In this document: one piece after another, positions 52,660 to 59,523 of the stretch
Position numbering within the stretch: the stretch's first letter is position 1
Layout: each line of letters begins with the position of its first letter
NCBI GenBank assembly: GCA_013538805.1
Contig: JABXGR010000004.1
Span: 1-64,000 of the forward strand
Direction: 5' to 3'
DNA from: Candidatus Nitrosocaldus schleperae
GTDB lineage: Archaea; Thermoproteota; Nitrososphaeria; Nitrososphaerales; Nitrosocaldaceae
DNA: 64,000 nucleotides
Notes under the pieces: generated by a model
What the model was told of the DNA's origin: nothing
Seen by the model: only the letters and a program-made list of their open reading frames with translations
Database searches by the model: none
Program-made: the position numbers and the translations under genes

Positions 52660-53115
52660 TCAACACTCTATCATAAGAACTCCTCTAGTGCTCTCATCCA
52701 TCAGCATTCTAACCATCTCTCTTGGCATATCTATTGCTGATGCACTACTCATTATGGCTAGAGTCCTTGGGCAGATATACCTGCTCTTCCTTATCACTAT
52801 AGAGCGATCATCCTCAAGGATAAGCATCCTGCATCCTTTGGCAGTGAACCTCCATTCCATGCCTTTAACAAGTATGGTGAATCTAATCTCCCTATCATCT
52901 TGCCTTACCCTATCACCTAGCAGGGCATTGAGGTCCCTGCATGCCTTGTCTGCCTTGACTCCAACTATACAATCTCCTCTAAGCGTTAGATGCTCATCCT
53001 TTGTAACCTCTATGGTGCTTCTATGCAATGCTCTAACGTTCCTATGCCCATAGAATGTTATGGTTGCCCTATGCACGCTATCCCTTATGCGTAAGAAACT
53101 TTTAAATGCTGGCAT
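52660..53115 (-). CDS. DUF371 family protein
   Basis: The 151-residue protein matches DUF371: FYGHRNVRALHRSTIEVTKDEHLTLRGDCIVGVKADKACRDL is the family core. The function is not established; the family is restricted to archaea. It is divergent from psmA, with 15 bp between starts, and both compete for the same short promoter. Confidence 0.85.
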   Translation of the reverse strand: MPAFKSFLRIRDSVHRATITFYGHRNVRALHRSTIEVTKDEHLTLRGDCIVGVKADKACRDLNALLGDRVRQDDREIRFTILVKGMEWRFTAKGCRMLILEDDRSIVIRKSRYICPRTLAIMSSASAIDMPREMVRMLMDESTRGVLMIEC

Positions 53116-53130
53116 ATCTGCAAGATCAAT

Positions 53131-53865
53131 GTGTTACCAGCAGCAGCAGGATATGATAGAGCAATAACTGTATTCTCCCCAGATGGTAGACTCTATCAGG
53201 TTGAGTATGCTATAGAGACTGTAAGGCGAGGTACTCTAGCCATAGGTATAAAGAGCAAGGATGGTGTTGTACTTGCAGCAGAGGAGAGGGCAAAGAAGTT
53301 ACAGGTTCATACCATGACACAGAAGATATTCCAGGTTGATGAGCATATAGGCGTTGCAGCAGCAGGCTACATCCCAGATGCAAGGATCCAGGTTGATCAT
53401 GCTAGGGTTATGGCTCAGAGTAACAGGCTTGTGTATGATGAGGCAGCAGATGTTGAGACTATAGCAAAGAACATAGCAGATCTTGCACAGCAGTTCACAC
53501 AGTATGCTGGCGTTAGACCATATGGAGTATCATTGATAATTGGAGGAGTGGATAGAAATGGAGGAAGCATATTTGTTACAGATCCAAGTGGCACATATCT
53601 AGCATACAATGCAATTGCCATAGGTGCTGGTTCAGATCAGGTTAATGATCTGCTAGAGAAGGTGTATAGAGAGGATATGAGCCTAGATGATGCATGTGTT
53701 CTAGCAATACAAGCAATATACCATGTAAGCGAGGATAAGAGTAGTACCAAGCATATAAAGATGGCTGTTATAGATAACAAGAGCAGGAAGATGCGTAGGT
53801 TAACTGAGGAGGAGATTGCCAAGTATGCAGAGATTGCAAAGAGTCGTGGTTCACTAACTCAATAA
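53131..53865 (+). CDS. psmA: Proteasome alpha subunit
   Basis: PsmA forms the outer rings of the 20S proteasome and gates entry to the chamber. Marks are GYDRAITVFSPDGRLYQVEYAIETVRRG and IGVAAAGYIPDARIQVDHAR. The start is a GTG at 53131; an ACTTTTAAATG box (about 53099-53109) lies about 26 bp upstream, giving a leaderless transcript. Length is 244. Confidence 0.96.
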   Translation: MLPAAAGYDRAITVFSPDGRLYQVEYAIETVRRGTLAIGIKSKDGVVLAAEERAKKLQVHTMTQKIFQVDEHIGVAAAGYIPDARIQVDHARVMAQSNRLVYDEAADVETIAKNIADLAQQFTQYAGVRPYGVSLIIGGVDRNGGSIFVTDPSGTYLAYNAIAIGAGSDQVNDLLEKVYREDMSLDDACVLAIQAIYHVSEDKSSTKHIKMAVIDNKSRKMRRLTEEEIAKYAEIAKSRGSLTQ

Positions 53866-56058: not shown

Positions 56059-56898
56059 ATGAAGCGTAGAATGCTATGGATAGCAACTGTAGCAGTAGTA
56101 GTAACTATAACCTCTCTCTATCTTGCTACATACTATTTACAAGCAGAGATAGAGGAGGAAGATTATACTTATAGATCCAGAACTACTAATTCCTTAACTT
56201 CGCCTACTGCATCATACCCTCCAATCACTCATCCAAATCTGAATGTATTTGCTGTGAGCGATAGGGCTAGTGCTGCTATAACCATTGCTCTACAAGATAA
56301 CAGCATAAAGGATATGGTGAGCAGGTGGCTTGAGTATGGAGCACACGTTACAGTTGCAGGAGTGCAGCCAGTTGAGTTATCCAGCAATGTGAAGATCACA
56401 GCACCTCATCAGAACCCAGTGCATCATGAATTGGTTGGGCTAGCAATTAAACCAGTACTCAAGCCTATGCTTGATAACCTTAGAGAGGAGGTTAGCAGTA
56501 GCAACATCTACAACAGCAGTAGGTATGTAGAGGTTATCATTGCTGTAAACTGGAATGCTATAGATGCTCATCCATACCCAATATCAAGTGCTGTAGATCT
56601 AGCCAAAGACGAGGGTAAAGTGTATGAAACATAACAACAGATAATCAGGGTTATAGTGGATATAGATGAGAGGAGAGTTAAGGATGTGATGGTAGAGCAA
56701 GAGAGGTTTTATGAACCATGGAAAAGGTTAACATGGTATATGGAGACAAATGTATTCATGCCCACAATAACCATAAAATCTAGCACGTACTACTATCATA
56801 GCATAACTACTCTGCATACAATGTTGTTGGTACATACACTACTGCACATGGCTCCACATATAGATAGTAAGGATATAGATGCTGGAGGGGTATGGTAG
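56059..56898 (+). pseudogene. Secreted protein of unknown family, interrupted by an in-frame TAA
   Basis: The frame from ATG 56059 has an N-terminal hydrophobic anchor (residues 6-27) and 191 codons before a TAA at 56632-56634. The same frame then stays open to 56898, continuing QQIIRVIVDIDERRVKDVMVEQERFYEPW. The amino-acid character runs on smoothly, showing that one gene of about 279 codons was interrupted once; VDID..RVKDV resembles PepSY-like segments. The final part (YYYHSITTLHTMLLVHTLL) looks out of frame. It is probably a decaying gene. Confidence 0.68.
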
Positions 56899-57062: not shown

Positions 57063-58223
57063 TTATCTTCTTACGCTTAGTTTACCTAGCAGGTACCCTC
57101 TCCTCTTCAAGTAAACTATTGTTTGAACTGCTATAGCTCCTGCTGCAACGAAGATGAGGATCATGAGTAGCGATGTATAGTATTGTTGATGGTGTATCTT
57201 GACTGTGCCTACACCTCCTACCAATCCAAGTACCTGAACCCTATCATTGCCATAATCAGCAACCAATATCCTATCATTGTTTGGATCATATGTTATATCA
57301 AGGATGTTGTTGAACTCCAGAATTTTGTTACCCTTTGAGCCAAACTCTGTCATGAACCTCCCATCTCTATCGAATATGTATATCTTGTTGCTTGCATCGG
57401 CAACTATCACCCTATCATGGTTATGATCATACGCTACGCTCGTAACAGGTTCAAACTCCTCTCTGCTAGGGGGTACTAACCTCAATACCCTATCCCCACT
57501 GTTGTTAAGTATCTGCACATTTGAATAACCTGGTATCCACGTATCTGCTACAATTATCCTATCGTTGTTATGATCATACACAACATCCCATACACGTATA
57601 AGCCTTGCAGTTGGAAGAATGGCACCAGCATACATATACTGCTCTGAACCGTACTTTGGTATTCTGAATTTATGCATGAGATTGCCATTGTCATCAAAGA
57701 TGTATACCTCAGGATCTATACCAACAGCTATCACCCTATCATGGTTATGATCATATGCTATCTGGTGTGGAATCACTAGAGCATATGTATCGTGATTCTT
57801 CACTACGCTGAAATTGAATAGAATGTTACCTTCTCTATCTAGCACATTTACTCCTGCAACATTCACTACGCTCTTACCTTTAGGTGTAAAGGGTACTGAT
57901 CCAATAACGAGTAACCTGTCGTTATCATTATCGTAATCGAGACCTCTTCTATTGATTATTGAATCACTGTCAGTTACCATTGAATCGAGTTGCTTTATCA
58001 ACCTACCATCCTTATCATATATCAGTATCCTATTATCTTCATCAGCAACTATTATCCTATCATTCTTTGCATCATATGCTACTTTAACAGGCTTTACCTC
58101 ATCTATCTCGAACAAGTATACATACCTTACATTAGTAGCATATACATTATTTATACTAAACTGGTATAAGAGTATAAGATTTAGCATCAATATCGCTATT
58201 AGTATCCGTTCTCTTCTAACCAT
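57063..58223 (-). CDS. Exported NHL-type beta-propeller protein
   Basis: The 386-residue protein begins with a signal anchor (ILIAILMLNLILLYQF) and contains repeated blades of the form YDxNNDRIIVAD followed by a short acidic turn and an aromatic strand (four or five clear copies between residues 50 and 330). It ends with a membrane helix (LLMILIFVAAGAIAVQTIVY) and a basic tail. NHL propellers bind proteins or polysaccharides; a target is unknown. ATG 58223 is chosen because the TATA at 58244-58254 lies 26 bp upstream; a TTG-initiated extension to 58238 is less likely. Confidence 0.8.
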   Translation of the reverse strand: MVRRERILIAILMLNLILLYQFSINNVYATNVRYVYLFEIDEVKPVKVAYDAKNDRIIVADEDNRILIYDKDGRLIKQLDSMVTDSDSIINRRGLDYDNDNDRLLVIGSVPFTPKGKSVVNVAGVNVLDREGNILFNFSVVKNHDTYALVIPHQIAYDHNHDRVIAVGIDPEVYIFDDNGNLMHKFRIPKYGSEQYMYAGAILPTARLIRVWDVVYDHNNDRIIVADTWIPGYSNVQILNNSGDRVLRLVPPSREEFEPVTSVAYDHNHDRVIVADASNKIYIFDRDGRFMTEFGSKGNKILEFNNILDITYDPNNDRILVADYGNDRVQVLGLVGGVGTVKIHHQQYYTSLLMILIFVAAGAIAVQTIVYLKRRGYLLGKLSVRR

Positions 58224-58243
58224 AATATTTGAATACAATTTCC

Positions 58244-58254
58244 GATATATATAC
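58244..58254. promoter_or_regulatory. Shared symmetrical TATA box for two divergent leaderless genes
   Basis: GATATATATAC is symmetrical around 58249. ATG 58223 (minus) is 26 bp away and ATG 58277 (plus) is 28 bp away, so one TATA-binding site can serve both genes. Confidence 0.65.
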
Positions 58255-58276: not shown

Positions 58277-59523
58277 ATGAACAAACTGACTATATATGCA
58301 GTGATGGCTACAATTCTTCTACTCATGCCATCATACACAGGCACTGATATGGTTAGAGCATGGATGGATAGATGGATAGATGGATAGAATATCAAAGTGC
58401 AGGTGGAGTGGAAGGCATGGTAGGAGATGAGGGGAAAGAAGAAGAGAAGGTTGCATATGTTGAGGATGTGCCTATACTTGAGGATAAGCAGTGGAGTGAA
58501 CTGGAGGCAGTAGTCCTTAGTGATGAAAGAGTAAATGCAAGTATGAAGGATAAACAGTACAGGTTGTATAGTCATAGTTTTGTTAGATACCTTGAGTACA
58601 GTGATCTGCCTAATAATAGTGTTGAACCAAACAAGTGGTATGCCAATATAGTCTATATCTACCATGAAGGTAATGATAAGTATCTATTATCTGCACTAGT
58701 AGATGTAGAAGAGAAGAAAGTAGTTGATGTACTTATAGTCAAGCATCCATCACAAGAGTTCAGATCATCAACAGCAGATAATGATAGTGATTTAATTAAC
58801 ATTGCGAGCCATAATAGGCCTAGTTTCTCTATTGCGTATTATAATGGTACTGCAACGAACACATATTACTTTAGTATTAGAGTAAATGCTCCAACCAGTT
58901 ATAATGGACAGATATCTCCACATGAGAATCTTGATTTTGTTCTTAATGCAACAAAAAAGAACTCTACTACGAGTGAACTATGCATTCCATCAAACAGAAC
59001 AAACAGTTACTGGGCACAAGTAGGTATGATATGGAGCTATAATACTAAAGATATTGTATGGACTGATACCAGAGAAGGATGTGGACATAGATTTTATTCA
59101 AGGGTACCATATGGTGATAGCAATAGATATATCTTCAGTATACATACATCAAGATCAGGTTCAGCATATACATGGTACATCTGTGCTATAAACCTTACAG
59201 CTAGAGTACAGGAATGTCAGCAGAGAAGCAATATAGATGAAGGTACATTCCTCACTACTAACAAGCACTCAAGTGTATGGTTAGAGAACTGGATAGTTAC
59301 ATCTAACTGGTATACATACTTTGGCTCAAATATTCAGGCTGGTAATGCCAAATACAAGAAGGTTGGAGATAGTACAGTCTATAACTGGGATTCTACTGTG
59401 AAGATAGATCAAGATTGTAGAGGAAGAGTTTATTTGAGCAATATTATAAGTGGGGATGTAACAAATGGCCAATGGGCTACATGGAACTTACAGACTATGG
59501 CTACCAGCTATCCTGCATGTTGA
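58277..59523 (+). pseudogene. Secreted protein gene, frame broken in an 8-bp repeat (possibly phase-variable)
   Basis: ATG 58277 starts a typical signal peptide (MNKLTIYAVMATILLLMPS) and stops at 58387 after the repeat tract. The extracellular part, 383 codons from 58372, lies in another frame, runs on to 59523 and contains many aromatic strands. Removing one GATGGATA unit joins them into one frame. It contains five or more cysteines and possible N-glycosylation sites (NAT, NRT, NLT). No family is recognised. The leaderless TATA at 58244-58254 fits only ATG 58277, so as it stands the mature domain is not expressed from it. Confidence 0.72.
58363..58386 (+). repeat. Three perfect GATGGATA repeats
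   Basis: GATGGATA occurs three times in tandem at 58363-58386. A change of one 8-bp unit shifts the reading frame; two copies fuse the signal peptide with the extracellular frame, three copies give the present stop. Confidence 0.92.

Follow-up and report, generated by a model that had tools for sequence, protein, structure and literature searches.

An eight-base-pair tandem repeat at the frame break of a putative secreted-protein gene in Nitrosocaldus

The window analysed in this work, a stretch of 64,000 nucleotides, is situated on contig C11 of a 1.45-Mb genome assembled in 16 contigs (G000) and belongs to Nitrosocaldus, a genus of thermophilic, hot-spring ammonia-oxidising archaea. The region from 58277 to 59523 contains a short leader frame, a tandem repeat and a long body frame, and this layout, which had been described in an initial annotation, was found in all its parts where it had been placed. 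The features of the locus are as follows.

56059-56898, plus strand: neighbouring broken gene, with a nonsense codon at 56632-56634 and a degraded 3' end
57063-58238, minus strand: NHL-repeat beta-propeller gene, 391 aa, divergent from and adjoining the body gene (Pfam NHL, E 1.8e-12)
58244-58254, plus strand: TATA-like box GATATATATAC, predicted promoter of the secreted-protein gene
58277-58387, plus strand: predicted signal-peptide ORF, 36 aa, ending at a TAG within the repeat tract
58363-58388, plus strand: (GATGGATA)x3.25 tandem repeat, site of the frame break (TRF, lag-8 simulation and genome scan)
58372-59523, plus strand: body ORF, 383 aa, predicted mature part of an unnamed secreted-protein family (homologs and conserved Cys)

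Leader, repeat tract and body frame

The frame that opens at ATG 58277-58279 translates as MNKLTIYAVMATILLLMPSYTGTDMVRAWMDRWIDG and stops inside the tract at TAG 58385-58387, and the body frame from ATG 58372, which lies within the tract immediately 3' of TAG 58369-58371, remains open for 383 codons; both frames were verified in the sequence. The centre of the TATA-like box is 28 nt upstream of ATG 58277, which is the spacing expected for a leaderless archaeal transcript, and the counterpart of the box in Candidatus Nitrosocaldus sp. SKYG19, GATATATAC, is conserved. The box is likely to be the promoter of the secreted-protein gene, with a leaderless start at ATG 58277. The leader reaches a maximum 12-residue Kyte-Doolittle mean of 2.5 and is predicted to be a signal peptide for Sec-type export. 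The offset between the leader and body frames is 95 nt, or 2 modulo 3, and therefore 2 or 5 units give a single frame, whereas 1, 3, 4, 6 or 7 units do not. The proposal that the loss of one 8-bp unit, from 3 to 2, would unite both frames was thus borne out by computation from the offset.

Across the 26 bp of the tract, TRF reported a period of 8 with 3.2 copies and a 100% match. The tract has 18 consecutive lag-8 matches, versus a maximum of 11 in 40 simulations under a second-order Markov model of the window, and the repeat is therefore non-random; it is a genuine tandem repeat, and the number of its units determines the reading frame, as had been claimed. Five GATR sites of at least 20 bp are present in this genome, and the tract is one of them. 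When GATR tracts of at least 16 bp were sampled from all six genomes of the genus, 23 of the 30 were outside any ORF of at least 90 aa, and of the other 7, some overlap ORFs that may not be real genes. Orthologous positions between species account for few of the sampled loci, so GATR tracts in the genus appear to come and go neutrally, and the tract at 58363 would then be part of a fast-turnover microsatellite background that by chance fell in a coding linker. A search for similar tracts near signal peptides elsewhere, a check that the initial annotation had proposed, returned tracts that are mostly intergenic in the genus, and for this reason the use of GATR tracts as signal-peptide markers was rejected. 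The longest GATR tract among those sampled, 48 bp, lies between ORFs (G003:C40:61000-63100, 997-1044 of that stretch).

The body protein and its homologs

No match to the body protein was found in Pfam, NCBIfam or PHROGs, and profile searches of the PDB with the family gave no credible match. Scattered weak Pfam matches to single homologs were judged not credible, and a single-sequence AlphaFold model of the protein, with a mean pLDDT of 36, was too poor for a structure search. Scans of genome contigs with a first pattern found no homologs, and with a second pattern only SKYG19 was matched. Scans of viral contigs and plasmids found no homologs, leaving a viral or plasmid origin of the gene unsupported. 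A profile built from the window body and a paralog on contig C3 of the same genome found matches in another family of the same archaeal order, which extend over the whole body and share the conserved motifs.

All of the nine uninterrupted full-length homologs have a hydrophobic in-frame leader, an N-domain and the body in one ORF of about 380-430 aa, and several carry a motif such as PNVNAQ after the leader. The homologs listed for the family are those of G381, G592, G467, G617, G547, G599, G451 and G582. The alignment contains the conserved motifs YWAQ.G, DT...C, SVWFEN, ATW and a C-terminal Cys; C204, C237 and C383 are invariant and C349 is nearly invariant (numbering of the 383-aa ORF), a set of conserved cysteines that would be fitting for an extracellular protein. 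A tenth, distant homolog (positions 919-2076 of a stretch on G392:C52) has one in-frame TAG between the N-domain and the body.

The two parts of the single-ORF homolog proteins are matched by the leader and the body of the window copy. Because all nine uninterrupted homologs join both parts in frame, it is well supported that 58277-59523 represents the two halves of one secreted-protein gene, and the earlier suggestion that the signal peptide and the extracellular frame belong together is thereby upheld. The window copy differs from the family in that its leader is present, yet out of frame in the consensus.

Decay and recombination around the gene

At the syntenic locus of SKYG19, the TATA box and the leader are kept, with a 2-bp gap in the hydrophobic segment of the leader, and the GATGGATA tract is missing. 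The body is spread over several frames with stops, which makes it a multi-frameshift pseudogene. Sequencing error is an unlikely cause of these frameshifts, because the flanking ribosomal-protein genes on the contig are intact. A search for homologs of the body in four further genomes of the genus (G001, G002, G004 and G005) found none; the gene is absent at the locus itself in the first three, and the contigs of G005 end inside the locus, before the tract. The comparison of strains that the initial annotation had called for thus found the gene decayed or missing in relatives, but no alternating on and off forms among them. A single uninterrupted gene in relatives was part of what the initial annotation had named as the mark of a fixed mutation or an assembly error; such genes were found in nine homologs from another family, and the copy in SKYG19 has multiple frameshifts.

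The adjoining genes are affected as well. The NHL gene and the secreted-protein gene also occur together in SKYG19, where the NHL gene is split and frameshifted. At the neighbouring gene, a close relative, G005, reads through the nonsense codon at 56632-56634, and the 3' end is degraded in both the window and G005. The locus resembles an accessory island that is decaying. Over about 53005-53420, the window is identical to G005:C48 for more than 400 bp, within an aligned stretch that is about 88% identical as a whole; this identity suggests recent recombination between lineages. The Nei-Gojobori dN/dS of the gene is about 0.29 in comparison with SKYG19 segments, and comparison with the part of the C3 paralog that has diverged gives 0.33, values of about 0.3 that reflect past constraint and not constraint since the frame break, and both comparisons show the excess of third-position changes of a coding pattern. 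From these values and the intact 383-codon body, the gene probably served a function over most of its history, and the break in the window is probably recent.

The C3 paralog is 67% identical to the window copy and is cut by a contig end. Its readable N-terminal 86 residues (ORF residues 37-122) equal those of the window copy except for one residue and are followed by sharp divergence, and the edge of this identity is a recombination or gene-conversion boundary. The contig ends within a 155-bp stretch identical to window 58479-58633. When window 58479-58738 is compared with the C3 end, 155 bp are identical and about 260 bp nearly so, after which similarity drops abruptly.

The paralog is directly upstream of sdhC, in the place where relatives have sdhA. 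The sdhA gene of this genome is on contig C2, where it runs straight into sdhC without an insert, and the interpretation of the C2 and C3 ends as a simple gap was dropped, as C2 continues directly from sdhA to sdhC. The assembly therefore holds both an empty (C2) and a paralog-occupied (C3) sdhA-sdhC junction, and because the empty junction matches that of relatives, the sample seems to contain both forms. The overlap between C2 (stretch G000:C2:1-2600) and C3 (stretch G000:C3:38000-41868) is exactly 127 bp, a typical assembly k-mer length, and we infer that it is an assembly-graph branch. The 5' end of this gene family could thus be a place where the assembly mixed copies, and the window gene is a recombining accessory gene whose 5' end is possibly collapsed in the assembly. 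In SKYG19, the sdhA-sdhC spacer (G003:C37) contains decayed NHL-gene and promoter sequence; the NHL and secreted-protein gene pair was probably once present there too.

Interpretation of the frame break

The explanation that we favour, and regard as probable, is that the window carries a null, secretion-off allele that arose by microsatellite slippage in a dispensable, recombining and decaying accessory gene. It starts from what was observed, namely the two frames and the repeat, the homology that both halves share with single-ORF relatives, and the decay in the sister species. The region would be a single gene of the unnamed family and would encode a Sec-type secreted protein. In an unconstrained linker between the signal peptide and the mature domain, a lineage-specific GATR microsatellite would have arisen and then changed by slippage to a number of units at which the frame is broken. 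Starting at the leaderless ATG, translation would terminate after 36 residues, and the assembled consensus would give no secreted product and at most some signal-less body, either by reinitiation at 58372 or from an internal start at 58417. The window allele would have a null phenotype and would be common in the population, as an early step of decay that slippage could revert, yet that was not built as a switch. In favour of this explanation, the gene is decayed in SKYG19 and lost elsewhere in the genus, and the neighbour at 56059 is broken. As regards a possible recent pseudogene, the frame break lies in a gene that is intact in relatives, and the dN/dS of about 0.3 refers to the time before the break. 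Against it, the body is otherwise intact over 383 codons and was under past constraint, the lesion is exactly in the repeat just after the signal peptide, where phase-variable genes often carry repeats, and the second copy with its unassembled 5' end leaves room for a consensus error.

The initial annotation had proposed slipped-strand phase variation, in which gain or loss of an 8-bp unit toggles the protein; secretion would be on with 2 or 5 units and off with 3 or 4. The geometry of the frames fits: the unit length is not divisible by three, the signal peptide of what is predicted to be a surface or secreted protein is immediately followed by the tract, the ORF downstream is undisrupted, and a change of one unit unites the frames. 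In addition, GATR tracts of up to 48 bp elsewhere in the genus imply that expansion occurs there. However, the 3.25 units of the tract are below the published cut-off of five repeats for phase-variable repeats with units of at least 4 bases (PMC6321876), the tract is not kept in the SKYG19 ortholog, the sole syntenic relative, and no other homolog was seen with a repeat-associated split. Counted as degenerate GATR, the tract would have 6 units. The mostly intergenic location of the other GATR tracts and the loss or decay of the gene in the rest of the genus also speak against a switch, which we consider unlikely. It is very doubtful, too, that the locus is one of variable surface proteins in which GATGGATA slippage toggles export and the body is swapped with the diverged copy at sdhA-sdhC through the near-identical 5' segment. 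An artefact of assembly, through the merging of near-identical 5' ends of two copies or the mixing of two repeat alleles, with the real allele in frame, is improbable as well. The end of the C3 contig in sequence identical to the window, the 127-bp overlap that puts the gene family at unresolved branch points, and the contig ends on both sides of the locus in the close relative G005 all point in its direction; against this, C11 runs unbroken across the locus, and even a short read is much longer than the 26-bp tract, which makes a wrong unit number unlikely unless two alleles were mixed. Finally, the gene might work as it is, with reinitiation or an internal start, at ATG 58372 or 58417, giving a signal-less body. 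The 16-nt overlap between the leader stop (58385-58387) and the body start (ATG 58372) permits reinitiation, and a GGTGGAG stretch precedes ATG 58417, but homologs have leaders and conserved Cys residues and a cytoplasmic form would mean a change of function; we give this possibility little credence. Programmed -1 frameshifting was rejected, as no slippery heptamer is present in the overlap of leader and body, the only place where it would be possible.

To our knowledge, repeat-driven phase variation has been described almost only in bacteria, and its occurrence in an archaeon, if proven here, would be notable. A 2025 review defers archaea to later studies (PMC11868660), and short tandem repeats are less dense in archaea than in the other domains (PMC12699852). 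The locus can be regarded as a candidate switch and, more securely, as a broken member of a family of secreted proteins without a name in Pfam and NCBIfam.

Among known systems, the contingency loci with simple sequence repeats, such as mod and lav of Haemophilus and the phasomes of Neisseria and Campylobacter, have in-frame tetranucleotide tracts. The window gene resembles them in that a repeat with a unit length that is not a multiple of three lies close to the 5' end of a gene whose product is predicted to be exported, and in that a change of one unit shifts the frame. It differs from them in that its tract is much shorter, has a single length in the one assembly covered and is not conserved in the sister species, and in that the gene is archaeal and lost by its relatives. 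Frameshifted accessory genes and recent pseudogenes share with the window gene that the frame is broken once, that relatives carry more lesions or lack the gene, and that a neighbouring gene is broken too; unlike theirs, the break in the window is situated in a tandem repeat and could in principle be reversed.
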